Positions 188 to 19,090 of a stretch of DNA of 20,151 bases are shown piece after piece; position 1 is the stretch's first letter; every line of letters starts with the position of its first letter. The notes under the pieces were generated by a model. It had not been told where the DNA came from. It searched no databases and saw nothing but the letters and a program-made list of their open reading frames with translations. The DNA lies in the IMG/VR virus record IMGVR_UViG_3300005515_000067, positions 1 through 20,151 of that record. One strand, given 5' to 3'. The translations under genes were made by a program, and so were the position numbers. This stretch comes from a virus.

Positions 188-349
188 ATGTACGCACACA
201 TCTACCGCGCGGCTGGCAAAAAGGCCCGCCTGATCATCAGTACCGGCCCGTCGATTTCCGAGGGCATCGTGTCCGAGCAGCTGTTCGACAGCAAGGCTGA
301 GGCCAAGGCAGCGGCGAAGGCTGCCGGCGCTAAAGCCTGGAACTTTTGA
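188..349 (+). CDS. Small unknown early phage protein, 53 aa
   Basis: First gene after the early promoter, encoding 53 residues from ATG 188 with GGAG about seven bases upstream. The product has a short basic N-terminal part (YRAAGKKARLII) and an alanine/lysine-rich, probably helical C-terminal half. No family is recognised. The start and reading frame are supported by the ribosome binding site and by the next gene beginning 15 bp after its stop. Length and position suit the small accessory proteins that phages make first after infection, but no function can be given. Confidence 0.6.
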   Translation: MYAHIYRAAGKKARLIISTGPSISEGIVSEQLFDSKAEAKAAAKAAGAKAWNF

Positions 350-364
350 GTCCGGGAGAGCACG

Positions 365-523
365 ATGAGCAAGCACACCCCCGGCGCCTGGCAGATCAAG
401 AAGTCGTACAACGGCTACGTCATCACCCGCACCTGGTCGAGCGGCTTCTACCAGCGCATGAGCACGCCGCACCTGCGCACCGAAGTTGAAGCGCAAACCT
501 TCCTGGCCGCTGCGGAGGCCTGA
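365..523 (+). CDS. Small phage protein with HTPGxW N-terminus, 52 aa
   Basis: 52 residues from ATG 365, with a purine-rich GGGAG upstream. It opens with SKHTPGAW, resembling the HTPGPW-type start of a widespread group of small phage proteins of unknown role. The rest has several aromatic residues and an alanine-rich end. The stop at 521-523 is one base before the next ATG (525), indicating translational coupling. The family resemblance is from memory; no biochemical function is known to me. Confidence 0.65.
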   Translation: MSKHTPGAWQIKKSYNGYVITRTWSSGFYQRMSTPHLRTEVEAQTFLAAAEA

Positions 524-524
524 C

Positions 525-872
525 ATGAACGCCCGCATGTCCCCCGAAGAGGCCCGCGACGCTGCCATCGCCGAGCGCACCGCCAAGAACGCAGACCACA
601 CGAAGGCGCTGATTGCAGCTGGCGACCTGACCACGATCCGCGAAGTCGGCGACTGCGTTACCGACTACCTCGCGTTTGCCTACGACGATCTGAACAAGCT
701 CGTGACCGGCGAACTCACCTTCGTCCAAATCCGCGACAAGGTGATCGAGAACGACGCGGAAGTCGCAGCGATCAAGCAGATCGAGCGCATGGAGCAGGTG
801 CGCAAGGAGCAGGAGCGGTGGGCTCGTATCGAGCGCCGCGCGTGGGATCGCCAGTACGGGGTGCTGATGTGA
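525..872 (+). CDS. Unknown early phage protein, 115 aa, helical
   Basis: 115 residues from ATG 525, chosen over the upstream TTG at 486 because 525 sits one base after the preceding stop. The protein is charged and probably almost entirely alpha-helical, with a basic, tryptophan-containing C-terminal segment (residues ~85-115: ERMEQVRKEQERWARIERR). No membrane segment, signal peptide or metal-binding motif is visible, and no family is recognised. The following gene begins with GTG overlapping this stop codon. Confidence 0.65.
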   Translation: MNARMSPEEARDAAIAERTAKNADHTKALIAAGDLTTIREVGDCVTDYLAFAYDDLNKLVTGELTFVQIRDKVIENDAEVAAIKQIERMEQVRKEQERWARIERRAWDRQYGVLM

Positions 873-1063
873 GCACGCAGACCACTTCCATGCGCCTGGA
901 AGGCCTCAAGAAGATCGTGCAGGCCGCTCGCGACGTCAAGCACCGCTACCCGGGACTTTACGTCGACGGCATCAACGCGGGCTTGGACATCGCCCTGCGC
1001 GCCATCGACATGGAACTGACCCTGTCCCGCGATAACGAAGCAGCGACGGCACCACACCAATAA
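869..1063 (+). CDS. Small unknown phage protein, 64 aa
   Basis: 64 residues starting at GTG 869, which overlaps the previous gene's stop in a GTGA junction. The frame stays open further upstream, but that would need a long overlap, so the GTG is preferred. The product looks helical and soluble, with a central YVDGINAGLDIALRAIDMEL stretch. Not recognised. The 40-bp gap to the next gene contains a good ribosome binding site for that gene. Confidence 0.6.
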   Translation: MSTQTTSMRLEGLKKIVQAARDVKHRYPGLYVDGINAGLDIALRAIDMELTLSRDNEAATAPHQ

Positions 1064-1103
1064 ACCAACCGCCGGCGGCGCCGGCCAGAACGAGGAGCAG
1101 AAG

Positions 1104-1394
1104 ATGGACCTGAAGAAGACCGGCGGGCAAGCGTTCCCGACCAGCGACGGGCAGTCGGCGCACGCTATCGCGGTAGGCGCAATCAGCGGCATCGAGGATC
1201 CGGCCGAGCGCGACCGCGTGTACACCGAGGTGCGTGGCCAAGCCATGCAGGGCATGACACTGCGCGACTACTTCGCGGCGAAGGCGATGCAGGGCATTTG
1301 CGCCCATGGCGATACGTGGGGCTGCGATATTCCCGAGATCGCGGCGAAGGCATACAAGATGGCCGACGCCATGCTTGCGGAGCGTGCCAAGTGA
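1104..1394 (+). CDS. Conserved phage protein with TLRDYFAAKAMQ motif, 96 aa
   Basis: 96 residues from ATG 1104 with AGGAG upstream. It contains an N-terminal GGQAFP segment, a central GMTLRDYFAAKAMQGI motif (residues ~50-65) and a C-terminal KAYKMADAMLAERAK helix. This three-part pattern is familiar from many short proteobacterial phage early proteins, but no function has been assigned as far as I know. Its stop overlaps the GTG of the next gene. Confidence 0.75.
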   Translation: MDLKKTGGQAFPTSDGQSAHAIAVGAISGIEDPAERDRVYTEVRGQAMQGMTLRDYFAAKAMQGICAHGDTWGCDIPEIAAKAYKMADAMLAERAK

Positions 1395-1777
1395 GCCGCG
1401 AACTGTCGGACATCCGCGTCGCGCTGGCCGACGCAAGGGCCGCTGCCGAATGGATGCGGGATCGTTCCACGCACTGGAGTGGGCGCGAGGCAGCGGATCG
1501 GTATCTGCAATCGATCAAGGCCGGAGCCGACGCCTGCGAAAAGCTGAGCCGCGACCTGCGCGACGGCCGCAGGCACCTCGACGTGCCTGACGATGTGCGC
1601 GAGCGCGGCCCGGTCGCCGCGAACCTGGAGAAGGCCGACGAGGGCTGCCGCCTGTGCGACACCTGCGAAGGCGTCGGCGTGACGATGATCGCCACGTGCG
1701 AGGCCGGCTACCACGTCGAGAAGGACGTGGCCTGCCCGGACTGCAAAGGCGAAGGCCAGGTCGAGGTGAAATCGTGA
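1391..1777 (+). CDS. Phage protein with DnaJ-like zinc-finger motifs, 128 aa
   Basis: 128 residues from GTG 1391 (GTGA overlap with the previous stop). Residues 1-80 are helical and charged. The C-terminus holds two CxxCxGxG-type motifs, C89-x2-C92-EGVG and C115-x2-C118-KGEG, with further cysteines at 86 and 103. In DnaJ chaperones four such repeats bind two zinc ions; here two repeats could build one zinc site. No J-domain (HPD motif) is present, so it is not a co-chaperone itself. Related short zinc-finger proteins occur among phage early genes. The zinc binding is an inference from spacing. Confidence 0.7.
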   Translation: MSRELSDIRVALADARAAAEWMRDRSTHWSGREAADRYLQSIKAGADACEKLSRDLRDGRRHLDVPDDVRERGPVAANLEKADEGCRLCDTCEGVGVTMIATCEAGYHVEKDVACPDCKGEGQVEVKS

Positions 1778-1980
1778 TCGCCGCCCGCATCGCGCGCCGC
1801 CTGGTGCGCAAGGCCATCAAGCCGGCCGCGCTGTGGCTGACCGACCGCGCGCTGACCGCGTCCGCCGGCGAAGCCGCCCGCCTGCTCCAGATGCGCGAGG
1901 ACCTCGTCAGCCTCGTGCGCACCGAACGAATCCGCGAAGTGCGCCTGATGGCGCGCCGCAAGCAAATCAGCACCTGGTAA
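1774..1980 (+). CDS. Small basic unknown protein, 68 aa
   Basis: 68 residues from GTG 1774, again a GTGA overlap with the preceding stop. The protein is strongly basic (many Arg, clusters such as RIARRLVRKAIK and RLMARRKQ) and probably helical throughout. A role binding nucleic acid is possible from charge alone, but no recognised motif supports it. A 20-bp gap containing GAGGA separates it from the next gene. Confidence 0.55.
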   Translation: MIAARIARRLVRKAIKPAALWLTDRALTASAGEAARLLQMREDLVSLVRTERIREVRLMARRKQISTW

Positions 1981-2000
1981 CCCACCAACCCGAGGAACCC

Positions 2001-2105
2001 ATGATCCGCCACATCTTCAACCAGTACCGCCTGTACCTGCGCGCCGGCTTCCAGCCGCGCCAGGCCGTCGCCCGTGCCGTGAGCAGCTATTTGCTGGGGT
2101 TCTAG
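2001..2105 (+). CDS. Very small phage protein, 34 aa
   Basis: 34 residues from ATG 2001, with GAGGA seven bases upstream. The sequence contains YRLYLRAGFQPRQAVARA, a pattern seen in tiny phage early proteins with aromatic and basic residues. There is no clear membrane segment. The next gene starts two bases after the stop, so it is embedded tightly in the operon, which supports it being translated. Function unknown. Confidence 0.55.
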   Translation: MIRHIFNQYRLYLRAGFQPRQAVARAVSSYLLGF

Positions 2106-2107
2106 CC

Positions 2108-2548
2108 ATGAAGACCTGCTTCAAGTGCCGCCGCGAGCTGCCGCTGACCGAGTTCTATCGGCACAAGCGGATGGCTGACGGCCACCTGGGGAAGTGCAAG
2201 GAATGCACGCGCGCCGACGTCGCCGCATATCGCAACGCAAACCCGGAGGCGACCGCGGCGAGGAAGTCTGCGTACAGCAAGACAGCGGCCGGCAAAGCTG
2301 TTCTACGCCGTACGTACTTGAAGCGTCGAGGGACGCACCCCGAGCAGTTCGCGGCGAACACCATCGTCAGCAACGCCATCAAGTTGGGGAGGCTGATCCC
2401 GCAGCCCTGTTTCATCTGCGGCGCCCAGAGAGCCGAAGCACATCACGCCGATTACTCGCTGCCGCTCGCCGTGACCTGGCTGTGCAAGAAACATCACGTT
2501 GAAACCCACCAGCTGGCGAAACAGCTGAAACGAAAGGAAGCCCAATGA
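2108..2548 (+). CDS. HNH-like zinc-binding phage protein, 146 aa
   Basis: 146 residues with two metal-binding parts. The N-terminus has C4-x2-C7 and C30-x2-C33, a zinc-finger arrangement. The C-terminus has C101-x2-C104, a His pair at 112-113 within AHHADYS, then WLC (126) and HH (129-130) with H134, the pattern of HNH/treble-clef proteins common in phages next to recombination genes. A basic helical linker joins them. It may be a nuclease or only a DNA-binding zinc protein; the catalytic Asn is not obvious. Its stop overlaps the recT start in an ATGA junction, suggesting coupled expression with the recombination genes. Confidence 0.75.
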   Translation: MKTCFKCRRELPLTEFYRHKRMADGHLGKCKECTRADVAAYRNANPEATAARKSAYSKTAAGKAVLRRTYLKRRGTHPEQFAANTIVSNAIKLGRLIPQPCFICGAQRAEAHHADYSLPLAVTWLCKKHHVETHQLAKQLKRKEAQ

Positions 2549-3549
2549 GTAACGCCCTCGCCATCATCACCGGCGCCATCCAGGAAGCGCGCGACGATTT
2601 CTCGCGCGTCCTCGTCGACCGCAGCATCAGCTTCGAGCGCGAAAGCGGCTTCGCGATCCAGATCCTGCAGAACAACGACTACGCGATGAAGGTCGCGATG
2701 GGCGCCAAGCCGTCGCTGATCGCGGCCGTGACCAACATCGCCGCCATCGGCATCAGCCTGAACCCGGCGCGCAAGCAGGCCTACCTGGTGCCGCGTGGCG
2801 GCAAGATCTGCCTCGACATCAGCTATATCGGCCTGCTGGACATCGCTGTCGCCTCGGGATCGATCCTGTGGGGCCAGGCCGAGCTGGTGCGCGAGAACGA
2901 CGCGTTCCGCAAGGTGGGCATGGACAAGCAGCCTGTGCACGACTTCGAGCCGTTCGGGAAGAACCGCGGCGAGATCGTTGGCGCGTACGTGGTCGTGAAG
3001 CTGCACAACGGCGATTACCTGACCACGATCATGGACATCGACGACATCTACAGCATCCGCGACCGCTCGGAATCGTGGAAGCGCAACGGCGGCGGCCCGT
3101 GGAAAACCGACGAGGGCGAGATGATCAAGAAGACAGTCATCCGCCGCGCGTACAAGCTCTGGCCGAAGACTGAGCGCCTGGACAACGCCATGGACCAGCT
3201 CAGCCAGAACGGCGAGCGCATGGTCGACCTGAACGAGCGGCCGGCCGACTGGATCGACGTCGCGCCGATGATCGCCGACGCGATCGCCACGCGCACGGAC
3301 GCCGACGCCCTGAAGTACTGGCGCGAGAACAACGGCAAGCTGGCGCGCCAGCCGCAGGACCACAAGAAGCTCAAGGACGCGATCGCCAGCCACCGTCAAG
3401 CGCTGCGTGATGCCGCCGACGCCGCGCGCACGATCGACATGGAGCCGCCGCGCGCGCCGCAGCCGTCGCCGCCGGCAGCCGCCGACATGCCGCCGCCGCT
3501 GTCCGATGAGGACGCCGATTTCCAACGTAGCCTGGGAGCACAACCATGA
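2545..3549 (+). CDS. recT: RecT-family single-strand annealing protein
   Basis: 334 residues. The central region (about 40-230) matches the RecT family: NPARKQAYLVPRGGKICLDISYIG, later EIVGAYVVVKLHNGDY and the GPWKTDEGEMIKKTVIRRAYK segment. RecT proteins coat single-stranded DNA and anneal complementary strands, working with a 5'-3' exonuclease in phage recombination and repair of replicating DNA. The exonuclease gene follows with a 4-bp ATGA overlap, so this is a classical two-gene recombination module. The protein is longer than E. coli RecT (269 aa) because of a C-terminal tail rich in Pro and Ala (residues ~300-325), probably disordered. Confidence 0.93.
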   Translation: MSNALAIITGAIQEARDDFSRVLVDRSISFERESGFAIQILQNNDYAMKVAMGAKPSLIAAVTNIAAIGISLNPARKQAYLVPRGGKICLDISYIGLLDIAVASGSILWGQAELVRENDAFRKVGMDKQPVHDFEPFGKNRGEIVGAYVVVKLHNGDYLTTIMDIDDIYSIRDRSESWKRNGGGPWKTDEGEMIKKTVIRRAYKLWPKTERLDNAMDQLSQNGERMVDLNERPADWIDVAPMIADAIATRTDADALKYWRENNGKLARQPQDHKKLKDAIASHRQALRDAADAARTIDMEPPRAPQPSPPAAADMPPPLSDEDADFQRSLGAQP

Positions 3550-4604
3550 AGTTCATCGAATGCCCGCAGGGCAGCGCCGAATGGCTCGCCGCGCGAAGCG
3601 GCAAGATCACCGCCTCGTGCTTCGCCGACGCCATCAGCGTCTGCCAAAAAAAGTCTGCTTCGCGTGATTCGGGAGACCCGACGGCGGTAGCTGAGCGCTA
3701 CGCCGCCGATCTGGCGATCGAGCGCATCAGCGGCCAGCCGCACGGCGAGCCGCCGAAAGCGTGGGTGCTCGAGCGCGGCCACGAGATGGAGGCGCATGCG
3801 CGCCGTATCTACGAGGGCCGCACTGGAGCTTTCGTCACCGAGGCCGGCATCTGCGTGACCGACGACGGCGCCTTCGGCTACAGCACCGACGGTCTGGTCG
3901 ACGACGACGGCCTCATCGAAATCAAAGCGCCGATCGACAGCACGAAGATTCTGGCGATGTGGCAGTCCGGTGACACGAGCGAATACGACCACCAGATGCA
4001 GGGCGGCATGTGGATCACGGGCCGGAAGTGGTGCGACTTCATCATGTACGTGCCGGACTTGGCCGCCGTCGGGAAGGACCTGTTCGTGAAGCGCATCTTC
4101 CGTGACGACGCGTTCATCGACGACATGGCCGCGCGCCTCGTGAAGTTCGACAGCATGGTGCAGTTGTTCGAGGGCGTGCTGCGCGCACCGGTAGATGATG
4201 CCGTCGACGCCGAGTTCGACCCCGACTTCCAGGAAGTGTCCGCCGCGCCGGCGCCCGCCGAGCTCGTGCAGGCCGCGGCCGCGCCCGAGATGCACCCGGT
4301 GCACCAGGTCTTGGTCGACGCGCTGGAACGGCGGCGCGAGGCTCAGCCAGCAATGGCGGCGACGGTGACGGACATTGATGTCGCGCGTGTACCGGCAGCG
4401 GACGACGAAGCCATGTTGCGACTTGGCCAGATCAACGAGCGCCTGGCGCCGATCACGCTGACCGCCGACGGCCTCGCGCGCCTGGGCTTCGCGCACGCGA
4501 TGACGGACAAGTCCGCGAAGTTGTATCGCGAGTCGGACTTCCTGCGGATCTGCGCCGCGCTGCAGCGGCACATCAGCGCCGTGGCCCAGCCAAAGGCCGC
4601 GTAA
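3546..4604 (+). CDS. YqaJ/lambda-type recombination exonuclease with C-terminal fusion
   Basis: 352 residues. Residues 1-215 form a YqaJ/lambda exonuclease nuclease domain: an N-terminal QGSAEWLAARSGKITAS segment, catalytic D115, E125 and K127 (D-x9-E-x-K, the spacing of lambda Exo D119/E129/K131) and the downstream YDHQMQGGMW motif. The enzyme digests one strand from double-strand ends so that RecT can load on the other. Residues ~215-287 form a low-complexity linker, and ~288-346 a separate module (LRLGQINERLAPITLTADG, then DKSAKLYR and CAALQRHI). I recall that module as a stand-alone phage protein, so this looks like a gene fusion. Confidence 0.9.
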   Translation: MKFIECPQGSAEWLAARSGKITASCFADAISVCQKKSASRDSGDPTAVAERYAADLAIERISGQPHGEPPKAWVLERGHEMEAHARRIYEGRTGAFVTEAGICVTDDGAFGYSTDGLVDDDGLIEIKAPIDSTKILAMWQSGDTSEYDHQMQGGMWITGRKWCDFIMYVPDLAAVGKDLFVKRIFRDDAFIDDMAARLVKFDSMVQLFEGVLRAPVDDAVDAEFDPDFQEVSAAPAPAELVQAAAAPEMHPVHQVLVDALERRREAQPAMAATVTDIDVARVPAADDEAMLRLGQINERLAPITLTADGLARLGFAHAMTDKSAKLYRESDFLRICAALQRHISAVAQPKAA

Positions 4605-4620
4605 CTCGAAAGGACACAAC

Positions 4621-5031
4621 ATGCTCTTCAACCACATTCAAGGCCAGCGCGAGCTCACTCAGCAGCAGGCGATCACCAAATACTGGGGCGGTGAAATTGA
4701 ATCGGTACCGCACCCGAAATATCGCTACGGTTGCGAAGTCCATCCGAACGGCTGGACCGAGATCACCCAGGAGGAGTTCGCGCAATCGAACTTCTTCCGC
4801 TACACCCCGCTGGCTGCTGGCTGGTCTCGCACCTTGGCTGGAGACGCCTTTTTGTACTTCATGCACGACGACACCGGCTTCGCCCTGATTGGCGACTACT
4901 GGGAAAAGAAGATCAGCATCTTCAAGTTCGGCTGCCAGCACGAGTCTACGAGCGAAGAAGTCGGCCGCTGCCTGACGAAGTACACGTGCAAAAAGTGCGG
5001 CTTCGTCCAAACCATCGATTCGTCGGATTGA
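4621..5031 (+). CDS. Unknown phage protein with C-terminal zinc ribbon, 136 aa
   Basis: 136 residues from ATG 4621 with AAAGGA upstream. The body is rich in aromatic residues and looks like a mixed alpha/beta fold. The C-terminus carries C105-x-H107, C117 and C123-x2-C126-G, consistent with a small zinc ribbon. No family is recognised. It follows the exonuclease by 16 bp. Codon use is slightly more A+T rich than in its neighbours, which may indicate separate acquisition. Confidence 0.65.
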   Translation: MLFNHIQGQRELTQQQAITKYWGGEIESVPHPKYRYGCEVHPNGWTEITQEEFAQSNFFRYTPLAAGWSRTLAGDAFLYFMHDDTGFALIGDYWEKKISIFKFGCQHESTSEEVGRCLTKYTCKKCGFVQTIDSSD

Positions 5032-5033
5032 TC

Positions 5034-5267
5034 ATGGCCGGCCAGCGCCCGTGCCTGTGGACGGTCCTGCACTGCCGCGAGCAGGACTTCCAGCGGTTCC
5101 TCGGCGTCGACAGCAACGAGGCCGCCGCCGAGCGCGTGCGCGAGCTGTGCGAAGTCAGCTCGCGCGCCGAGCTGGACCGCGACGCGGCCGCGCAGGCGCG
5201 CTGGGATGAGCGGATCCGCCGCGCGTACCTCAACTATCAAAAGCAGCACCCCACCAACCACCAATAG
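5034..5267 (+). CDS. Small conserved phage protein, 77 aa
   Basis: 77 residues from ATG 5034, two bases after the previous stop. The sequence is charged and helical, with the segment AAERVRELCEVSSRAELDRD (residues ~31-50), a pattern I associate with short phage proteins near recombination genes. An upstream in-frame extension would overlap the preceding gene extensively, so the ATG is preferred. Function unknown. Confidence 0.6.
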   Translation: MAGQRPCLWTVLHCREQDFQRFLGVDSNEAAAERVRELCEVSSRAELDRDAAAQARWDERIRRAYLNYQKQHPTNHQ

Positions 5268-5282
5268 GACCAGGAGATGTAA

Positions 5283-5810
5283 ATGTTCGAACTCGAAAAG
5301 CAGCAGGTCAAACTCGTGAAAGTGTCTACGCCGATGGAAAACCACGGCAAGGACTACAAGCTGGCGTGCGTCCTCACGATCGAGGCGACGGTGCCGAATA
5401 AGCATCTGATGAATTTCGCCCCGGGTCTGCGCGATGCCCTCTATCGCATGGCCGACCAGAACAACGACGACGGCGACCTGCTGGCCGACCCGGAGCAGCC
5501 GACGGTGCTGCGCTTCCCGAAGATGTCCCCGTTCGACTGGGAATGGGAAGGCACGGGCTATACCGCCGTTGTGGACTATGGCCTGGGCGGCGAGAGCGAC
5601 ATCGTCCTGGGCGACGCCGAAGTCGGAAGCTTCAGCATCACCCCCATGGAAGGCGGTAGCGTGGTCGTCAAGTGCAACATTTCGGCACACCCGGAGGAGG
5701 AGCATGTCGGCAAGCTGTGCGCGAAGCAGAAACAGAACATCGACCTGACGCTGACGCCTCCGCCGCCGGCTGACGTGTACGACCTCTTCAACGAAGAGAA
5801 GGCGGCCTGA
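5283..5810 (+). CDS. Conserved recT-neighbour phage protein, 175 aa
   Basis: 175 residues from ATG 5283 with AGGAG upstream. It begins FELEKQQVKLVKV and has a beta-rich body with ALRFPK-like (here VLRFPKM), SFSITPMEGGSVVVKCN and LTLTPPPP segments. This is a recognisable protein commonly encoded beside recT/exonuclease genes in proteobacterial phages, but I know of no demonstrated function. Its constant company with the recombination module makes a DNA-metabolism role possible; that is inference by neighbourhood only. A start-stop ATGTAA lies directly before its ATG. Confidence 0.7.
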   Translation: MFELEKQQVKLVKVSTPMENHGKDYKLACVLTIEATVPNKHLMNFAPGLRDALYRMADQNNDDGDLLADPEQPTVLRFPKMSPFDWEWEGTGYTAVVDYGLGGESDIVLGDAEVGSFSITPMEGGSVVVKCNISAHPEEEHVGKLCAKQKQNIDLTLTPPPPADVYDLFNEEKAA

Positions 5811-5811
5811 C

Positions 5812-6693
5812 GTGAGCGCCGCACTGAAAATCATGCCGATCGAGCAGTGCGGCGCCGTGGGCAAATGCATGGCGTCACCGCAAAGCTACGAGTCGCACAT
5901 GAGCAGCTACAGCTACCGGAAACCCGCACCCGATCGCGTTGCCGCCCATGCTTTGGCCGAACTGGAGAGGGCGCGCGCCGTCGACGTGGCCACGCATGAA
6001 CGGAACGTGCCGGCGCTGGCCAACAACCAGGCGGTGCGCGAGCACGTCGAAGCTGTGATGGCTGAGATCGGCATGCCTCGCAGCTTCACTCAACGCGACA
6101 CGAACTCGCGAGCCCGCCGCCCGAAGACCTTCAGCAGCTCCGCCGGATTCCTGTCCGATCTCGTGCGCGAATGCAAAACGGATGATGGCTTTGCAGCTGC
6201 TACTCGCACCTACGAGGAATTGTCGAAGCGCTACCGCGAATTCGAGGCGGCAGCGAAGCAGCAGGCCGAGCGGGACAAGGTGGCTGCCGAGCGCGCGGAG
6301 GCCGAGAGGATCGCCAAGCGCCGGGCCGACCTGGAGCTGGTCACAATTATCCAGCGCTATGGTCTGCCCATCGAATCTGAATGGCACGACGTGCTGGAAG
6401 CCCTGCGCGGGCGCGACCAGCGGCTCGACCTGGCTGTCGCCATGGAGGACGTGCGCGGCGACTGGAATGATGGATGCGGCGCCGTTGAATACGCGCTGAG
6501 CCGGTTCACGATTCGCGACAACGAGGACAAGGACATCGCCAACGACGTTCTGGGGTGCACGCGCGACTTCGAAGACGGCCGGGTGTTCCGTGATACGACT
6601 TGGTCGTACAGCGCCTTGTATGCGTCCGTCGCCGATAGGCAGCTCGCGGCAGACGTACAGACGGCCAGAAGCCATGCGAGGAACGAATCGTGA
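5812..6693 (+). CDS. Unknown phage protein with coiled coil, 293 aa
   Basis: 293 residues starting at GTG 5812, one base after the previous stop. Residues ~130-178 are a charged Ala/Glu/Arg/Lys-rich coiled coil (YREFEAAAKQQAERDKVAAE...), followed by a globular C-terminal region with several Trp and Asp. The N-terminal ~100 residues are polar and may be partly disordered. No domain is recognised and no catalytic motif stands out. Its stop overlaps the GTG of the next gene (GTGA), suggesting coupling. Confidence 0.65.
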   Translation: MSAALKIMPIEQCGAVGKCMASPQSYESHMSSYSYRKPAPDRVAAHALAELERARAVDVATHERNVPALANNQAVREHVEAVMAEIGMPRSFTQRDTNSRARRPKTFSSSAGFLSDLVRECKTDDGFAAATRTYEELSKRYREFEAAAKQQAERDKVAAERAEAERIAKRRADLELVTIIQRYGLPIESEWHDVLEALRGRDQRLDLAVAMEDVRGDWNDGCGAVEYALSRFTIRDNEDKDIANDVLGCTRDFEDGRVFRDTTWSYSALYASVADRQLAADVQTARSHARNES

Positions 6694-7460
6694 CCCAGCC
6701 ATCGCAAAACGCACTGAGCGCGCGCGGCCTGCGGCCAGTAGCGGAGCTCGCCGCCGGCCGAGACCACGGCGACCGGCTGCGCTACAGGGCAGGCTGCCGC
6801 TGCTTCCGCTGCAGGAGCGCCAACACCGCATACGAGGCAGCCCGGAAGGTGGCGCGCGCCGCCGGCGAAGGAAACGGCATCGTGCCGGCTGCGAAAGCCC
6901 GCGCGCACCTGAAGGCGCTATCGGCGCAGGGCGTCGGGAGGCGTTCTGTCGGCGCGGCGTGCGACGTGGCCGACACCGTGCTGGCGGACATCATCTCGGG
7001 CCGCAAGACAAACATCCGCGCCTCGACCGAGCGCGCCATCTTGAAGGTCACCGCGGCCGCCGCCGGCGACGGTGCGCTGGTGTCGGGTAAGGCCACCTGG
7101 AAGATGCTCGACGAGCTGATCGCCGATGGATACACCCGGACCTATCTGGCCGCCCAGCTCGGCAGCAAAAGCAAGGTCCCGGCGCTGCAGCTCAAACGCG
7201 ACGTCGTGACCGTGCGCAGCGCATACCTGGTCGAGCGCCTGTTCGAGAAACTGAAATGCGAGTGCGCCAAGCCGACCATGAAGCTGCTGGCGAAACTGCG
7301 CGACGAGGGATACACGCAACACCAGATCGAGCAGCGGCTCGTCGCGCTGGCCGCGAGGCTCGGTGAAGAACCGCCGTCGATACAGCCGAACAAAAAGGGG
7401 AGGATCAGCACGAAAGCGGCTGATCTCGTAGAACAGCTTTACCAAGAACTGACCGCCTGA
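6690..7460 (+). CDS. Putative DNA-binding phage protein with Cys cluster, 256 aa
   Basis: 256 residues from GTG 6690. Near the N-terminus HGDRLRYRAGCRCFRCRSA places H26, C36, C38 and C41 close together, a small zinc-knuckle-like pattern found in phage proteins. Residues ~80-120 (GVGRRSVGAACDVADTVLAD, then SGRKTNIRASTERAIL) look like a helix-turn-helix. Two further repeated HTH-like segments follow around GYTRTYLAAQLG (147-158) and GYTQHQIEQRL. It is probably a DNA-binding regulator or replication helper. Its place after the recombination genes would suit a middle or late gene regulator, but that is speculation. Confidence 0.6.
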   Translation: MTQPSQNALSARGLRPVAELAAGRDHGDRLRYRAGCRCFRCRSANTAYEAARKVARAAGEGNGIVPAAKARAHLKALSAQGVGRRSVGAACDVADTVLADIISGRKTNIRASTERAILKVTAAAAGDGALVSGKATWKMLDELIADGYTRTYLAAQLGSKSKVPALQLKRDVVTVRSAYLVERLFEKLKCECAKPTMKLLAKLRDEGYTQHQIEQRLVALAARLGEEPPSIQPNKKGRISTKAADLVEQLYQELTA

Positions 7461-7465
7461 CGATC

Positions 7466-8383
7466 ATGAGCGAAAACAGCAAAATCGAATGGACCGACCA
7501 CACGTTCAACCCGTGGATCGGCTGCACCAAGGTGAGCCCGGGTTGCGACCACTGCTACGCGGAACGCGACATGGCCAGCCGCCTGAAGGTCGTGCAGTGG
7601 GGCCCGCGCGGCGCGCGCGTGCGCACGAAGCCGGCGAACTGGGCGAAGCCCATGGCCTGGAACCGTCGGCACGACGAGTTCTTCGCGCAGCACGGCCGGC
7701 GCCAGCGCGTGTTCTGCGCGTCGCTCGCCGACGTATTCGACAACCAGGTGGACCCGGCGTGGCGCGCGGATCTGCTCAAGCTGATCGCCCAGACCCCGAA
7801 TCTGGACTGGCTGCTGCTGACGAAGCGCATCGGCAACGTGACCGACATGCTGCCGAACGGCTGGCTGATCGATCACCCGAACGTGTGGCTGGGGGCAAGC
7901 ATCGTCAACCAGGTCGAGGCCGACCGCGACATCCCGAAGCTGGCCACCCTGCATGCGCACGTGAAGTTCCTGAGCATGGAGCCGCTGCTGGGGCCGGTGC
8001 GCCTGGACCAGAATGCGCCCGACGAGCGCGCGCTGCGCTGGTACCGGCCGATGATTCGAATGGTCGACTGGGTGATCGTCGGCGGCGAGAGCGGCCCGGC
8101 GTCCCGTCCAATGCACCCGGCGTGGGCTCGCGACCTGCGCGACCAGTGCGCAGCCGCAGGCGTGCCGTTTCTCTTCAAGCAGTGGGGTGAATGGCTGCCA
8201 GCGATCGATGGCCGCAGCGTGACGGGCAAAGTCCTGATTCTGGAAGGCGCCGCGCCGCTCCCGGTCAAGCCGCAGTGGCACGGCTTCGAGGGTGGACAGC
8301 AGGTGGCGCGCGTGGGCAAGAAGGCCGCCGGCCGCCAGCTCGACGGCGTTCAGCACGACGGCTATCCGAAAGGTGGGACGTGA
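7466..8383 (+). CDS. Phage Gp37/Gp68 family (DUF5131) three-cysteine protein
   Basis: 305 residues. The N-terminus holds the family signature: IEWTDHTFNPWIGC, then C20-x6-C27-x2-C30-YAE. The body continues with RVFCASLADVFD, LDWLLLTKR, NVWLGAS, FLSMEPLLGP, WVIVGGESG and PFLFKQWGEW, all typical. The three cysteines and TIM-barrel-like strands resemble radical-SAM enzymes, so a 4Fe-4S cluster and SAM chemistry are plausible, but the substrate is unknown. In many genomes a separate partner gene (TcmP) lies next to it; none is seen here. An ASCH-like gene lies 0.9 kb downstream. Confidence 0.88.
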   Translation: MSENSKIEWTDHTFNPWIGCTKVSPGCDHCYAERDMASRLKVVQWGPRGARVRTKPANWAKPMAWNRRHDEFFAQHGRRQRVFCASLADVFDNQVDPAWRADLLKLIAQTPNLDWLLLTKRIGNVTDMLPNGWLIDHPNVWLGASIVNQVEADRDIPKLATLHAHVKFLSMEPLLGPVRLDQNAPDERALRWYRPMIRMVDWVIVGGESGPASRPMHPAWARDLRDQCAAAGVPFLFKQWGEWLPAIDGRSVTGKVLILEGAAPLPVKPQWHGFEGGQQVARVGKKAAGRQLDGVQHDGYPKGGT

Positions 8384-8388
8384 GCTTT

Positions 8389-8628
8389 TTACAGGCCGGT
8401 TTGCCCATCCTGGATGCACTGATGGGCGTACTGAATCCCGGCCTCGATCGCCATGCCTTCGGACTCGTAATCCTGGGGAAGGTGGTGCCGCATGCCCGGC
8501 GCCAGCGTTTTGCTGGCGTCAGCCTTACGCTCGAAGAAAACGAACGCTGCCCAGCAGTTTTCGCCCTTTTCTACTGCATGCGTGTTCACGAAAAATTCAC
8601 CCATCTCATGGAATCGGTATTCGGCCAT
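8389..8628 (-). CDS. Small unknown protein on the opposite strand, 79 aa
   Basis: 79 residues read leftward inside the rightward early operon. Support: a strong ribosome binding site (GAGGAG about six bases before the ATG), no competing frame on the plus strand with phage-like sequence, and a sensible product with a beta-rich start (WAAFVFFERKAD) and a DYESEGMAIEAGIQYAHQCI helix, a pattern seen in small stand-alone bacterial and phage proteins. It ends 5 bp from the stop of the DUF5131 gene, converging tail to tail. It probably has its own promoter (8682-8711). Function unknown; independently expressed cargo (moron-like) is a possibility. Confidence 0.65.
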   Translation of the reverse strand: MAEYRFHEMGEFFVNTHAVEKGENCWAAFVFFERKADASKTLAPGMRHHLPQDYESEGMAIEAGIQYAHQCIQDGQTGL

Positions 8629-8681
8629 CTGCCTCTCCTCTCTGGAAAACCCGCACTGTACACGGAACGAAAAACGTTGTC

Positions 8682-8711
8682 ATTACGCAAATTTGATACA
8701 CGCGGTGCCAA
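8682..8711 (-). promoter_or_regulatory. Candidate promoter for the leftward 79-aa gene
   Basis: On the minus strand TTGGCA (8711-8706) is followed by an 18-base spacer and CGTAAT (8687-8682). The -35 matches 5 of 6 consensus positions and the -10 only 4 of 6. The local sequence is A/T rich. The -35 lies within the inverted repeat at 8705-8720, so a repressor could act here. Confidence 0.35.
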
Positions 8712-8725
8712 GTCTGGCACTTTTT
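8705..8725 (+). terminator. Hairpin with T-tract, terminator or attenuator
   Basis: GTGCCA (8705-8710) and TGGCAC (8715-8720) form a 6-bp stem with a 4-base loop followed by five Ts. This resembles an intrinsic terminator for rightward transcripts, yet it sits just upstream of the ribosome binding site of the gene at 8737. It could attenuate expression of the distal operon including the integrase, or be an operator. Confidence 0.5.
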
Positions 8726-8736
8726 GAAAGGACGAC

Positions 8737-9264
8737 ATGGACAAGAACACCGACATCAAGCTGGAAGCCAAGCGCTTGCGCCTGCTGGCCGCCGTGCTCG
8801 AGCTGCAGCACTACACGAGCACGGAATCGAACATCGTGCCCATCCCGGGCGGCGACCGCGTGATCGCGATCGGGACGCCGGCGCAGGTGCTGGCCACGCT
8901 GACAAACCGAGCTGCACGCGATGTCCTGGCCGAGCGCCGCCGCCAGGTCGAAGCCGAAGGGATGACGAACGAGGGCGACGACCGCTACTATGCCGCAGAG
9001 CTGCCGCGCGCCGCGGCGTCGTACATCCTGAACGGTGCCAACGACGAGGCTCCGTATATTTGGCCTTGGGCGAAGTCGTGGTGGAAGCCGCGCGATGCCC
9101 GCGCCAACTACGTGCGCGCCGCCGCGCTGCTGCTGGCCGAAATCGATCGCATCGACCGCGCGAAGCAGGCCGCCCTGCAGCAGCTGGTCGACCAGGCGCA
9201 GGAGCTGGACATGGGGTATGGGCCGGCGGCCGCCACCGACAGCGAAGGTGGCCACCATGACTGA
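8737..9264 (+). CDS. Conserved phage protein, 175 aa
   Basis: 175 residues from ATG 8737 with AAAGGA upstream. The central part (about 60-145) has the pattern ARDVLAERRRQVEAEGM, then DDRYYAAELPRAAASYIL, PWAKSWWKP and NYVRAAALLLAEIDRID, a recognisable conserved block in many phage proteins of unknown function, sometimes fused to other domains. It looks helical with conserved acidic and aromatic residues, but I know of no proven activity. It overlaps the next gene by 8 bp. Confidence 0.75.
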   Translation: MDKNTDIKLEAKRLRLLAAVLELQHYTSTESNIVPIPGGDRVIAIGTPAQVLATLTNRAARDVLAERRRQVEAEGMTNEGDDRYYAAELPRAAASYILNGANDEAPYIWPWAKSWWKPRDARANYVRAAALLLAEIDRIDRAKQAALQQLVDQAQELDMGYGPAAATDSEGGHHD

Positions 9265-9937
9265 ACGTCCGATCCTCTTCAGTGGCCCAATGGTGCGCGC
9301 GCTGCTCGACGGCACGAAGACGCAAACGCGGCGTGTAGTGAAGCCGCAGCCAGAGTCGTGGCAGAGCCTTCAGCCGATGTGGGGTACCAGCCCGCCACCG
9401 AACCCGGTTGCCTTCGGCCGGCCAGGCACCGTTCGCCCGGTGGCGCCTGATTGGCCGGACAGCGCCGACGATGACATCCTGTGCCCATACGGAGTAGCGG
9501 GCGATCGCCTGTGGGTGCGCGAGACGTGGGCGCAGCCGACGACTCTCGACCCTGGCCCCACCTTCTATCGGGCCGATTATCCGTCGTGCGCGGCCGGCTT
9601 CACGAACCTGCCGCCGGTCGATGAGATCACGTGGAAGCCGTCGATCCACATGTTTAGGAAGGACAGCCGCATCCTGCTGGAGATCACCGGCCTACGCGTT
9701 GAGCGGCTGCAGGACATCAGCGAGGCGGACGCTATCGCCGAGGGAATCGAGCAGATGCCGTGTGCGGTTCCCAGCACGCGGACGTGGCGCAACTACGACC
9801 CGTCGAATGGATGGACGTCGAAGGTCGCAATTCCACAGAATTCATACCGGTCGCTCTGGGACAGCATCAACGGCGCCGGCAGCTGGGCGACCAACCCCTG
9901 GGTGTGGGTCGTGGAATTCAGGAGGATCGAACGATGA
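9257..9937 (+). CDS. ASCH/PUA-like phage protein
   Basis: 226 residues from ATG 9257. It starts RPILFSGPMVRALLDGTKTQ and RRVVKPQP, followed by GDRLWVRETWA, then ILLEITGLRVERLQDISEADAIAEGIE and a C-terminal NPWVWVVEFRRI. This layout is that of phage ASCH-like proteins, a PUA-related beta-barrel fold thought to bind RNA or modified nucleotides; some databases call them morphogenetic proteins without good evidence. Aromatic-rich loops at residues ~170-205 could form a ligand pocket. It is coupled to both neighbours by overlaps. Confidence 0.75.
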   Translation: MTERPILFSGPMVRALLDGTKTQTRRVVKPQPESWQSLQPMWGTSPPPNPVAFGRPGTVRPVAPDWPDSADDDILCPYGVAGDRLWVRETWAQPTTLDPGPTFYRADYPSCAAGFTNLPPVDEITWKPSIHMFRKDSRILLEITGLRVERLQDISEADAIAEGIEQMPCAVPSTRTWRNYDPSNGWTSKVAIPQNSYRSLWDSINGAGSWATNPWVWVVEFRRIER

Positions 9938-10113
9938 TCGAACGAGGAAAGGACCGCCGCCGCGGCGTGTCGTCGTACTTCACCAGCCCGGTGAACGACC
10001 GACGCCGCCCGCAGTTCGAACGGCGTGGGACGGTTCCGGCCAGACCGGCGCCGACGCGTGGCGAGCAGGTGTACGGCGAGCGCCGGGTGCTTCCGGACGC
10101 GGGACTGGAGTAA
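9934..10113 (+). CDS. Small Arg-rich protein, 59 aa
   Basis: 59 residues from ATG 9934, overlapping the previous stop in an ATGA junction, with GGAGGA upstream. Very rich in arginine and proline with little hydrophobic core, so probably disordered alone. Binding to DNA, RNA or a protein partner is plausible but not shown. Its place in a tightly coupled series argues that it is translated. Confidence 0.55.
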   Translation: MIERGKDRRRGVSSYFTSPVNDRRRPQFERRGTVPARPAPTRGEQVYGERRVLPDAGLE

Positions 10114-10115
10114 CC

Positions 10116-10352
10116 ATGCCGACCAATTACCTCACCGCCGACGAGCTGGCCGAGCTGATCGGCTGCGCGCCCACCAGCTTCGCGTGCATGCGCCGCTACC
10201 TGGACCGGCACGGGTGGCCGTTCGAACCGAACCTTCGCGGATTCCCGCGCGTGAGCCGCGCGTATCATGACGCCCGGCTGAGCGGCGCCGCCGCCCCAGG
10301 CCCGGCACCAGTCGCCGACGCCGAACCTGACTTCAGTATGTTTTCGCAATGA
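10116..10352 (+). CDS. DUF4224-like protein upstream of integrase
   Basis: 78 residues from ATG 10116. YLTADELAELIGCAPTSFAC, then RYLDRHGWPFEPN and GFPRVSRAYHDARLSG, fit the short DUF4224 family usually encoded directly before phage tyrosine integrases. The N-terminal half resembles the winged or MerR-like helix-turn-helix of excisionases. It is therefore the best candidate for a recombination directionality factor here, which would bend attP DNA to favour excision. The gene is joined to the integrase by an ATGA overlap. Excisionase function is inferred from position. Confidence 0.75.
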   Translation: MPTNYLTADELAELIGCAPTSFACMRRYLDRHGWPFEPNLRGFPRVSRAYHDARLSGAAAPGPAPVADAEPDFSMFSQ

Positions 10353-11449
10353 TCGGAAGAAGAAAATCACCGGACGGCATGCCGTTCCGCCTGTACGAGC
10401 GCCTCGGTAAGTTCAAGGTGAGCTACGGCTACAAGCTGCCGGACGGGAAGTGGGCGTTCCGCTTGACGGCCGCCACCAGCGACAAGGAAGCGTGCGCGCG
10501 GATCCGCACCGAGGCGATCGAGCGCGCCAACGAGCTGAACGGCGTCCAGGTGGAGACCGGCGAGACCGATGCGCTGTTCCGCCGCTACTTCGCGTGGCAG
10601 CGCGCCTTGCCGCGCGACAGCGAGGAACGCAAGGCCGACAGCACCCTGGACGAGAACGAGCACAACGAGGCAAAGCGCCTGCTGAAGACATTCGGCAAGG
10701 TGAAGCCGGCGGTCATCAAGCCGGTGCACATCTATAAGTATCTGGACGGCCGGGCCGCTGAAGGCGCGCCGGCGAAGGCGAACAAGGAAATCGCGCTGCT
10801 GTCGGCTGTGCTGGAGTTCGGCCGCCGTAAGGGTGTGCTGGAGACGAACCCCTGCCGCGACATCAAGTACAACAAGACGACGCCGGACACCCGCTATGTG
10901 ACGTCGACCGAGCTCGACCTGGTCGTGCGCGTGGCGCGGGAGCGCGGCGGGATGTACGTGGTGGCGGCGCTGTGCTTGCGCGCGGCCTACCTGACGGTGA
11001 GCCGTCCGGACGAGATGCGGAAAATCACGCGCCAGGCGATCACGGAGCAGGGGGTCGAAATGCCGGTCGGCAAGCGGAAGAAGGGAAGTGTGCAAAAGTT
11101 CAAGGTGATCGAGTGGTCGGACGAGCTGCGCGCGGTCATGAGCGAGGCACTGTCCCTGCAGCGCACGACCAGCATGTATGTTTTCGGCAACAGTGAGGGG
11201 CAACCCTACACGACCAGCGGCTGGAACACGAACCTGCGCCGGTTGATGGAGCACGCGCGGAAGAAGGCGGAAAAAGAAGGGATCGAGTTCGCGCGGTTCA
11301 CGTTGAAGGACATGCGGCCGGCGGCTGTCACGGACCGGGTAGAAGAGGGGGATAAAGACATCACGAACGCTACCGGACACAGCACGGATCGCATGGTGCG
11401 GCAGGTGTACGACAGGCGGAAGAAGAAGACGGCCAAGGCGACCGCGTAA
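10349..11449 (+). CDS. int: Tyrosine-family phage integrase
   Basis: 366 residues. The N-terminal ~75 residues form an arm-binding-type domain, ~75-170 a core-binding SAM-like domain and ~180-360 the catalytic domain. Catalytic positions visible are R219 (SRPDEM), a Lys in the KRKKGSVQK hairpin, R323 in KDMRP, H344 in GHST and nucleophile Y354 in QVYDRR. The usual His of the HxxR box is Lys320 here. The enzyme would recombine attP (11455-11705) with a host tRNA-His gene. It is the last gene of the early operon and ends 5 bp from the first arm repeat. Confidence 0.95.
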   Translation: MIGRRKSPDGMPFRLYERLGKFKVSYGYKLPDGKWAFRLTAATSDKEACARIRTEAIERANELNGVQVETGETDALFRRYFAWQRALPRDSEERKADSTLDENEHNEAKRLLKTFGKVKPAVIKPVHIYKYLDGRAAEGAPAKANKEIALLSAVLEFGRRKGVLETNPCRDIKYNKTTPDTRYVTSTELDLVVRVARERGGMYVVAALCLRAAYLTVSRPDEMRKITRQAITEQGVEMPVGKRKKGSVQKFKVIEWSDELRAVMSEALSLQRTTSMYVFGNSEGQPYTTSGWNTNLRRLMEHARKKAEKEGIEFARFTLKDMRPAAVTDRVEEGDKDITNATGHSTDRMVRQVYDRRKKKTAKATA

Positions 11450-11543: not shown

Positions 11544-11591
11544 TGGGGTGGCTGATGGGACTCGAACCCACGACAACAGGAATCACAATCC
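11544..11591 (-). other. tRNA-His 3' fragment (att core)
   Basis: On the minus strand the sequence begins GGATTGTGATTCC (GTG anticodon loop) and runs through the variable loop, T-arm (GGGTTCGAGTCCC), acceptor strand and encoded CCA. It closely resembles the 3' part of bacterial tRNA-His. The 5' half (acceptor 5' strand, D-arm) is absent; the sequence just upstream is unrelated. It is therefore not a working tRNA but the segment that restores the host tRNA-His gene when the phage integrates. Crossover probably occurs at or near the anticodon loop. Confidence 0.9.
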
Positions 11592-16996: not shown

Positions 16997-18426
16997 CGCG
17001 TCAGGCCCTCCGCGTCCACTGCGGCGCCGAGGATGACGCGCTTCACCGGATCGGAAATCGAGATCTCAAATACGCGATCGCGACTGCTGCCCAGGCGCCG
17101 AAGACGTGCGCGCGCCTTGAACTCGGCGATGCGGCCCATCGACATCGTGCGCAGAGTGCTCCAGGTGTGCCCGCCGTCGTCCGACCAGCGAACCATCATC
17201 AGCGGGTCGCTGCCCTGGCCAGTGAGCAGGCCGACGCCCGCCTCAATGTCGACCTGCAGGCCGTGGTAGCGGATGCGCCGGTAATCGCCGTCGGCCACGT
17301 GCGCCGCCGCCCGCCGCGCCAGCAACGGGTTGCCGTCGTCGTCGTAGCAGTCCAGGTCCAGCGCGTACAGGTTGCCGTTCTCCCAGTCGCCGACCACGTG
17401 CTCGCCGCTCCAGAACATGTGGCAGTTGGCGCGGTGCCGGTTCAGCTGGCCGTCGCTCGGGTCGAGCCATGCGCGCTCGTGCCAGAGCTGAGCTTTCACG
17501 CCGTAGACCCATGTCGCGTTCGCGCTGGGGAAGCTCAGCACATAGTGCGTTTCGCCTTCCTGCGTATAGGCGAAGGCTCGGGCATCCGAGATGTCGCCGT
17601 AGCTCTGGATCGCGCGCTCGATGCCGTCGTGGGACACGCGCACGGGCGAGTAGCCGTTCAGGCGCCAGACGGTGCCCTGGCCGGTCTTGTCCTCGCCCAG
17701 CCAGAACACGCTGTTGTCCAGGTCGGCCACCGAGTGCGGCGCGCAGCAGCCCTGTTCGATGAGCGCGTTGCCGTCGCGTGTATACGGGAAGTCGGCCTCG
17801 CCGGTGTAGCTCCACACCTCGGTCACGGTCCGTTTGAACAGCAGCAGCTGGCCGTGGTTGACGATATGGGAGACGATAGGCTCGGCGTTGCTGTCCGCCG
17901 CGGCGAAGTCGAGCGCGTCGAACGTCACCGAGCCGTCGGCCGCCGATATATAGAACTGGAACGTGCCGGGGCGGTCGAGGATGAAGGCGTTGTTCGCGTA
18001 GTCGACGCGCTGCCCGCCGTAGAACGCCTCGTCATCGATGCGCACCAGAGCGTTCGTGCCCAGGTTCAGCTGGTACCCGTTCGGGCCCGTCCCGAGTAGG
18101 GCGATGTTGCCGTTGTCCTTGATCGAGACGGGGGCGTCGAGCGCGTCGATCGTGCCCACCAGCGTTGGCGTGAAGTCGGCGGCCACACGGTAGACGTTGG
18201 AGCCGGCCACCGCAATGGCGTCGCCGACCGACGGCCGGTACAGCGCGCGGATGCCGCCGCCGGCGAGCGTCGCCAGCCGGCGCAGGCCGGGAGTGCCGAA
18301 CAGCGCGCGCACGGACTTGGCATTGCCTCCTGATTCATCAAGAACCGGATATAGATTGATACACCGCGACGCGCTAAAATTGAGGGACCTAGAAAGATAG
18401 GCTCCTCCAACAAAAGGGATTCTCAT
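16993..18426 (-). CDS. P22 gp10-like packaged DNA stabilisation (tail) protein
   Basis: 477 residues, close to P22 gp10 (472). It begins MRIPFVGGAYLSRSLN, CINLYPVLDESGG and GTPGLRRLATLAGGGIRALY, then repeated beta-propeller-like strands (TVTEVWSYTGEADFPYTR, GCCAPHSVADLDNSVFWLGE, WLDPSDG). Such proteins close the portal after DNA packaging and hold the tail needle or spike. The first ~36 codons (AGA, CTT, AGG, CTA, TCA) are A+T rich and unlike the GC-rich rest, continuing the composition of the HNH gene that abuts its start. No ribosome binding site precedes the ATG. Confidence 0.88.
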   Translation of the reverse strand: MRIPFVGGAYLSRSLNFSASRCINLYPVLDESGGNAKSVRALFGTPGLRRLATLAGGGIRALYRPSVGDAIAVAGSNVYRVAADFTPTLVGTIDALDAPVSIKDNGNIALLGTGPNGYQLNLGTNALVRIDDEAFYGGQRVDYANNAFILDRPGTFQFYISAADGSVTFDALDFAAADSNAEPIVSHIVNHGQLLLFKRTVTEVWSYTGEADFPYTRDGNALIEQGCCAPHSVADLDNSVFWLGEDKTGQGTVWRLNGYSPVRVSHDGIERAIQSYGDISDARAFAYTQEGETHYVLSFPSANATWVYGVKAQLWHERAWLDPSDGQLNRHRANCHMFWSGEHVVGDWENGNLYALDLDCYDDDGNPLLARRAAAHVADGDYRRIRYHGLQVDIEAGVGLLTGQGSDPLMMVRWSDDGGHTWSTLRTMSMGRIAEFKARARLRRLGSSRDRVFEISISDPVKRVILGAAVDAEGLTR

Positions 18427-19090
18427 GGTTGAAGACTGGAAGCCGATTGCAGGTTTTGAGGGGATCTACGAAGCCAGTAATCAGGGCAGGATTCGTAGAT
18501 TAGAGCGAGGGAAAAAGCTTTGCGCAGCGGATATTCCAAACATCGTGGCCTTACGTGAAAAAGGTTTGTCTCATCAAAAAATTGCAAACCAATTCGGAGT
18601 TAGTAAGAGAAACATTGCCATGATTTTCAAAGGACTTAACTGGGCCAATGACCCTGCACATCGTTTTATTCAAGGATCTCTGCTAACGACCGGCTACTTC
18701 ATGGTGCAGCTCCGCAAAGATGGAAAGTCGCACAGGCATTTGGTGCACAGACTGATCGCGCAGACGTTTATTGGCCCGATACCGGCTGGCCTGTGTATTA
18801 ACCATTTGGATGGAAACCCCAAGAACAATGCGGTGACCAATCTTGAAATCACAACATATGCCGGCAATGCTCAGCATGCGATTAAGGCTCTCGGTTGGAA
18901 GCCGACAGCTCAGCGTGGGCCTCAAAACGGTTGCGCGAAGCTAACCGAAGAGCAGGTTCGATATATAAAAAGTCAGCCGAAAAAATATGGAATCGCGACC
19001 AAGCTGGCGCGCGAATTTGGCGTCACTAATAGCGCAATTAGCTCAATCCTGAATGGGAAAAACTGGGCACATATCCAATCCAGGGCATAA
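18320..19090. mobile_element. Homing endonuclease insertion with converted flank
   Basis: A stretch visibly richer in A+T than everything around it, comprising the HNH gene and the first ~105 bp of the gp10-like gene. The change back to GC-rich sequence is abrupt at about 18320 and at 19090. This fits a free-standing homing endonuclease that arrived together with a piece of its donor's gp10 (co-conversion). No terminal repeats or target duplication are visible, as expected for homing. Confidence 0.65.
18425..19090 (+). CDS. Free-standing HNH homing endonuclease with two HTH modules
   Basis: 221 residues, SD AGGGA before ATG 18425. Residues 4-25 (WKPIAGFEGIYEASNQGRIR) form a NUMOD4 DNA-binding motif. 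Residues 33-76 hold an HTH module (LREKGLSHQKIANQFGVSKR), and 88-150 the HNH domain with H108 (LVHRLIAQTF), N126/H127/D129 (INHLDGN) and N139 (NLE). A second HTH occupies 169-216 (KLAREFGVTNSAISSIL). Both HTH modules end in an NWA motif, suggesting duplication. It probably nicks or cuts a specific phage sequence, most likely in gp10-type genes. It lies opposite to the late operon. Confidence 0.88.
   Translation: MVEDWKPIAGFEGIYEASNQGRIRRLERGKKLCAADIPNIVALREKGLSHQKIANQFGVSKRNIAMIFKGLNWANDPAHRFIQGSLLTTGYFMVQLRKDGKSHRHLVHRLIAQTFIGPIPAGLCINHLDGNPKNNAVTNLEITTYAGNAQHAIKALGWKPTAQRGPQNGCAKLTEEQVRYIKSQPKKYGIATKLAREFGVTNSAISSILNGKNWAHIQSRA

Follow-up and report, generated by a model that had tools for sequence, protein, structure and literature searches.

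A backward gene in a variable cargo slot of a temperate phage early operon, probably a moron cassette

Results

Genes at the locus

The stretch of DNA analysed (the window) was one IMG/VR virus record of 20,151 bases. By the codon-model gene call of the whole record, the early row (188-11449) held 21 rightward genes, including those for RecT, a YqaJ-type exonuclease, a DUF5131 protein, g8737, the gene at 9257-9937 and the integrase, and a single leftward gene, at 8389-8628. This sole leftward call bore out the initial annotation, which had described a leftward gene interrupting a rightward operon. From 12378 to the end of the record the called genes ran leftward, the head-closure gene included.

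About 95 bp past the integrase, positions 11544-11590 (TGGGGTGGCTGATGGGACTCGAACCCACGACAACAGGAATCACAATC) resembled the 3' part of a tRNA gene, presumably of the His type. ARAGORN called no full tRNA at these positions, and at gathering scores Rfam matched nothing in the window. By its sequence the site looks like an attP, and since phage genes flank it on both sides, the record does not seem to be an integrated prophage. In one of the three low-GC stretches of the record, a gene whose product has NUMOD4 and HNH_3 domains (18425-19090) ran forward against the leftward structural genes; it is likely a homing endonuclease insertion.

The leftward gene (8389-8628, minus strand) started with ATG and encoded 79 amino acids. 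Its leader read ...AGAGAGGAGAGGCAG-ATG, with the Shine-Dalgarno sequence AGAGGAG (8635-8641, minus strand) 6 nt ahead of the start codon. Its codon log-odds was 0.215 per codon. The values were 0.456 (sd 0.15) for coding windows and, for size-matched open windows in a wrong frame, -0.33 (sd 0.28); one of 286 such wrong-frame windows reached 0.215. The stretch reads as coding, on the evidence of the open reading frame list, the codon score, the gene call, the homologs L061 and L094 and the distant relative L105, and the very good ribosome site that had been claimed for a 79-aa leftward gene was found. A chance open frame in 335 bp of non-coding DNA might be suspected from the 161 ORFs of at least 45 aa in the window, many of them spurious, and from the two forward frames of the stretch that are also open; given the rarity of such a codon score in wrong frames, the strong ribosome site and two full-length homologs with the same start, it is highly improbable.

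To the left lay the DUF5131 (Gp37/Gp68-type) gene (7466-8383, plus strand; PF07505, 9e-91), convergent with the cargo gene and with its stop codon 5 nt from that of the latter. No leftward terminator-like site was found next to the end of 8389-8628, and the fold of the 91 nt spanning the 3' end of the gene was no better than that of shuffles (z 0.32). To the right, g8737 (8737-9264, plus strand), which marks the slot in relatives, was preceded on the right flank by a hairpin followed by T5 (GTGCCAAGTCTGGCAC; about 8705-8727, plus strand), present also in relatives without cargo. This hairpin, GTGCCA-AGTC-TGGCAC and then T5, was kept behind several different upstream genes in relatives; in L108, L110-L112 and L123 the upstream gene ended at the TGA of the hairpin, and in L120 and L095 a different hairpin (GCCGG...CCGGC) took its position. 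It is possibly an attenuator or an exchange border.

Comparison with related phages

The comparison with the empty relative L108 (contig of L017), together with the low GC, delimited an inserted cassette of leftward gene plus leader at 8370-8704 (minus strand; border +/-1-2 bases). The window departed from L108 after GGCTATCCGA (8369) and rejoined it at 8705, an insert of about 335 bp. Past GGCTATCCGA, L108 continued GTGCCAAATCTGGCAC..., its DUF5131 gene running straight into GTGCCAAATCTGGCACTTTTTGAAAGGA and then g8737, with no insert. DNA identity between the window and L108 was 86% over the left 200 nt and 91% over the right 100 nt. L123 (contig of L014) had the same empty junction, with identities of 83% (left) and 67% (right). 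The end at 8725 given in the initial annotation takes in the leader and also the hairpin ahead of g8737; the inserted unit is approximately 8370-8704.

The GC content of the cassette was 0.548, against 0.642 for the whole record. Windows of cassette size as low in GC numbered 123 of 1982 and were confined to three places: the cassette, the integrase end with the attP region, and 18241-18961 with the reversed HNH gene.

A survey of the slot covered 30 loci found with the N-terminal 60 residues of g8737 as query, plus the window (31 in total). By gene calls, a reversed gene lay upstream of g8737 in 14 of the 31 (the window, L107, L114-L118, L120, L124, L127-L129, L132 and L134) and was lacking in 17 (L099, L106, L108-L113, L119, L121-L123, L125, L126, L130, L131 and L133). 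The 79-aa family had no match in any of the 30 other slot loci by profile search of all fetched frames; in the presence/absence comparison proposed by the initial annotation, the gene was thus not part of a fixed core. The slot differs between two phages of one set, because L107 (filled) and L123 (empty) share an isolate genome number.

The 14 reversed proteins formed 7 groups, or 8 without the weak L095-L124 link: the window; L107; L095 (the contig of L132) with L120 and perhaps L124; L128 with L134; L114, L115, L116, L127 and L129; L117; and L118. A hydrophobic, membrane-like segment was present in the seven proteins of the last three groups. The GC content of all 14 cargo genes (0.529-0.607) was below both flanks of each. 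No known function was found for any cargo protein scanned (that of the window and 10 of the 13 others). Two 'phage' records also matched the L107 cargo, and the one inspected had ordinary chromosomal genes around the match.

Because the loci were gathered via DUF5131, g8737 and the membrane-cargo family, they do not form a random set; it includes several near-duplicate contigs and some overlapping loci from a single contig (L113 and L119 share a contig, and L099 and L121 resemble them). As the slot was defined as the gap beside a rightward gene, forward-oriented cargo would be taken for the neighbour gene, and the observation that all cargo was reversed is partly an effect of the search design, because forward cargo would go unseen. 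Contig 3300010224_000022 (L113, L119) carried a g8737-type gene close to each end, neither of them with cargo. Directly behind the DUF5131 gene of L061 (6001-7008) lay a small reversed frame (7010-7234), which had a CATGCTAGGATTTCC leader and a low codon score (7.7). Xanthomonas phage CP2 had a DUF5131-type gene and then forward genes, with no reversed gene annotated there.

Leader and putative promoter

By consensus scan, the leader held one putative leftward promoter (8655-8683, minus strand), with -35 ATGACA (8683-8678), 17 nt of spacing and -10 TACAGT (8660-8655). The site matched the consensus at 9 of 12 positions and was the only sigma-70-like site on either strand in 7000-10500 (0.3 expected in shuffles), in keeping with the possible promoter noted before. 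The extended -10 word TGnTAnnAT was absent from the whole window, so that the putative promoter rests on the 9/12 consensus match and on conservation in three contigs.

The conserved leader block (8655-8700, minus strand; TGTATCAAATTTGCGTAATGACAAC...GTGTACAGT) was common to three phages with two kinds of cargo. In the leaders of the window, L120 and L095 it spanned TGTATCAAATTTG through the -10 box, the two boxes staying 17 nt apart; ATGACA was present in all three, and the -10 boxes were TACAGT, TACAGT and TAGAGT, respectively. The cargo of L120 and L095 was unrelated to that of the window despite the common block. In the whole viral collection, the block core occurred in two other contigs (those of L120 and L095), and it occurred once in the window.

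The palindrome CAAATTTG inside the block was conserved and, as a sequence feature, is a possible operator; it was discarded as a phage-wide operator, there being no second good copy in the window. A conserved palindrome that could be an operator, and convergence on DUF5131 with no terminator-like site nearby, would also suit a leftward unit that mainly regulates the operon, its promoter braking or delaying downstream genes and its protein being secondary or a regulator. Such a role is unlikely in view of the 17 of 31 loci without a reversed gene, the diversity of the cargo proteins, several groups of which were conserved as proteins, and the single good copy of the palindrome.

Homologs, fold and function

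In a tblastn search among fetched loci, the 79-aa protein matched L061:5092-5334 (minus strand) with 39.5% identity (E 6e-11), the other accepted match being the window's own copy (L001). The single match in the plasmid collection was L094:5986-6252 (plus strand), on a Paraburkholderia megaplasmid (33.8%). The three proteins aligned over their full length from the same start, with the core W-x-A-x-V-x-F-E-R-K in all of them; L061 ended at the same residue as the window protein, and L094 ran on for 9 residues. A profile scan of viral contigs returned the L061 contig alone, and 50,697 phage records gave no match at E 1. Profile searches found a distant relative, L105, in one of 398 genomes of a phylum sample, and only the L105 genome again among the 399 of an order sample centred on it; L105 adjoins what by eye looks like an Rz/Rz1 pair. 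The g8737 profile matched none of the same 399 genomes, which shows little because the sample held no genome known to match.

In L061 and L094 one shared forward gene (82% identical over 122 aa) lay back to back with the homolog; its L061 copy was DUF1643, and the leaders of the homologs (TGCTACGAT and TGCTAGGAT, respectively) overlapped the start of this DUF1643-type gene. Two other candidates were rejected: L002 (27 aa, 50%) as a homolog, since a profile search of its genome at E 0.01 was negative, and a relationship of the family to the L029-group reversed cargo, for which hhalign gave E 0.0019 but a probability of 14%.

The structure model of the 79-aa protein, from a two-sequence alignment, had a pLDDT of 82.8 and a pTM of 0.71, with strands at 2-8, 12-22, 25-35 and 42-54 and a helix at 57-74, a generic beta4-alpha arrangement. 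The best Foldseek match was Borrelia Pur-alpha (E 0.43), and among viral models there were matches to unnamed proteins (E 0.11). In comparisons with PUR-repeat or dsRBD-like folds, VIA-align Z did not exceed 6.5, a value that common arrangements also reach. All of these matches were too weak to name a fold family or a function. Assignment of a function by homology failed in Pfam, PHROGs, NCBIfam and PADLOC (the last up to E 0.1; a new kind of defence system would not match), the product having been described as unrecognised, and two PDB chains at E 0.75-0.76 were not accepted. DUF6566, a lookalike of small reversed-cargo proteins, had no Pfam match to the window protein, and another cargo family scored 14.8 bits against a cut-off of 26.7.

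Extended -10 word in reversed-cargo leaders

TGnTAnnAT occurred in 10 of the 14 filled slot leaders (0.23 expected from shuffles) and never on the opposite strand, a figure obtained after the fact because the word was first noticed by eye in those leaders. It was absent from all 14 empty loci considered (of 17; L113, L121 and L125 left out). Because of its origin in the slot leaders, the word was also tried in other loci. For the membrane-type cargo family, 20 loci were reduced to 14 by leaving out contigs already used (L135, L137, L146, L153) and near-duplicates (L141, L143). The word was present in 13 of these 14 leaders (0.14 expected), although promoter and gene may have travelled together, since the family is shared with five slot members. 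By gene calls, 12 of the 14 had cargo opposed in direction to the genes on either side, and in L144 and L147 one side was undecided; L138 and L147 may be two-gene units because of an extra same-direction frame beside the cargo, which leaves 11 of 14 clean. The general frequency of the word was 0.0045 per 100 nt of strand (L003-L093).

A wider survey of 137 fetched viral loci (GC > 0.58, some overlapping) yielded 90 distinct sites and is a description rather than an independent test, because these loci include the sets in which the word was found. A reading frame of 50 aa or more, bearing a ribosome-like site, started at most 70 nt downstream of 58 of the 90 sites, a divergent frame started at most 60 nt away from 47, and 32 had both; the corresponding values at 6000 random positions were 29, 23 and 6%. 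Five scrambled motifs had both at 4/56, 5/103, 5/96, 15/295 and 4/50 sites. Of the 47 sites with a divergent frame, 32 had the forward start codon at one exact offset, with the promoter TG in the antisense of the ATG. Read the other way, CATGCTAGGATTTCCT is AGGAAATCCTAGCATG, that is, the extended -10 word opposite a ribosome site and start codon. A backward word over the next forward start codon, followed by reversed frames, was also seen near 6001 in L028, L040, L045, L077, L085 and L089, and the same arrangement over a forward start at L075 4568, L061 5370, L094 5945 and L156 4060.

Discussion

The cassette at 8370-8704 reads best as a moron in a variable cargo slot of a temperate phage early operon, with leftward expression predicted in the lysogen (probability about 0.78), and from sequence comparison the moron reading is well supported. 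The marks of morons given for Burkholderia phages in passages of PMC2920897 are insertion between genes, own control signals, a different GC content and occurrence in more than one phage class. In the present case, L108/L017 and L123/L014 join DUF5131 directly to g8737, the base composition differs (0.548 vs. 0.642), and the gene family recurs in several kinds of phage or element (L061 at another site, the L094 megaplasmid and distantly L105). A candidate for own control signals is the one promoter-like site, in a block conserved in three contigs. No terminator of the cassette's own was found, which alone does not exclude a moron, because the passages of PMC2920897 list promoter, operator and/or terminator. 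Of the moron reading in the initial annotation, the independently organised cargo has held up, with an empty site, a lower GC content, other cargo in relatives and a leader block; its suggestion of exclusion or defence found no match in the four databases searched.

The expression state would follow from the arrangement. Host RNA polymerase would read the cargo leftward from ATGACA/TACAGT while the early operon is repressed, and the small beta4-alpha protein would be made in the lysogen. When the operon is switched on, convergent transcription would shut the cargo gene down; such a shut-off is suggested by the distance of 5 nt between the end of the cargo gene and that of DUF5131, and by the lack of a terminator-like site next to the cargo gene. 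The protein might then bind a component of the host or of an invading phage and so alter host fitness or block superinfection. Superinfection exclusion or defence as its benefit is somewhat unlikely, and other effects on the host take the remaining weight.

Expression on infection from its own promoter, as a lytic early gene for host takeover rather than a lysogeny gene, would agree with the position of 8389-8628 in the early region, and phage takeover proteins are often small, fast-evolving orphans. The gene, however, runs backward against the early operon, and the phage possesses both an integrase and a tRNA end resembling an attP. Passages on Salmonella prophages (PMC7067206), moreover, describe antisense orientation to lytic genes as characteristic of accessory loci. 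In view of these points a takeover role is improbable. The passages on Salmonella STMMW_20121 (PMC7067206) describe a close likeness to the moron reading, a gene antisense to lytic genes with its own promoter in lysogens; expression was measured there, whereas it is predicted for the window cargo.

Related phages that exchange cargo at one fixed site are also described in passages on defence hotspots (PMC9122126), in P2-like phages and P4 satellites. In contrast to the reversed cargo seen in the present slot, the P4 elements lie in either orientation, and many of the systems were shown to act against phages. The Burkholderia phage morons (passages of PMC2920897) likewise lie between phage genes, with lower GC content, own control signals and several phage types; they were found by broken collinearity, and a reversed-gene slot or common leader is not described in those passages. 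The Start-Associated Sequences of Cluster K mycobacteriophages, in passages of PMC3203893, resemble TGnTAnnAT as a repeated sequence at the starts of non-structural genes, but are 13 bp long, nearly all gene-directed and with a proposed translational role, whereas TGnTAnnAT is promoter-like and backward.

In the isolate Burkholderia phage BgManors32 (OK665842.1), reversed genes interrupt the forward ones. One lies immediately behind a gp37-type gene, and another (69-aa) has a TGCTAGGAT word across the start that the depositors annotated for the following forward gene. In the 7.6-kb stretch of this phage TGnTAnnAT occurred once, and two other reversed units lacked the strict word. Its cargo differs from the 79-aa family, being an L116-related protein with one membrane segment (36% over 106 aa) and a member of the 69-aa family (74%). 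The frame of UEW68599.1 (L156 5369-6049; BgManors32 21785-22465) extends upstream into a stretch with SDWASWAQAVGAIAAI, related to L116 cargo, and by its sequence the protein may be annotated too short.

The backward cargo is interchangeable among related phages and probably made while the phage is dormant. With slightly less than even odds, a general scheme can be put forward tentatively, in which phages with hosts that are probably Burkholderiales carry portable backward cassettes whose extended -10 is written antisense to the next forward gene's ribosome site and start codon (AGGAAATCCTAGCATG backwards being CATGCTAGGATTTCCT). One element would start translation forward and transcription backward, and cargo would drop in at a gene start without breaking the operon and be expressed in the lysogen but not during lytic growth. 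The window lacks the word of this proposed class and both close homologs carry it; the 79-aa family would travel in this way in L061 and L094, and the window would use a second leader type common to three phages. In the open-licence literature no prior report of the reversed-promoter word or the cargo slot was found, and the seven papers containing one of five 12-base forms of TGnTAnnAT are, by title, not on phages. The window cassette would be of a known kind, the moron, and the cassette architecture around it possibly new.

Temperate-phage cargo genes change their hosts and are hard to spot, as many are orphans. If true, the swap site and the promoter word together would give a listing, from sequence only, of cargo likely expressed in lysogens, testable in bulk, and CATGnTAnnATT is a pattern by which public Burkholderiales prophages could be scanned for reversed cargo. 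For the window, the 79-aa family gains a likely expression state and a testable role.
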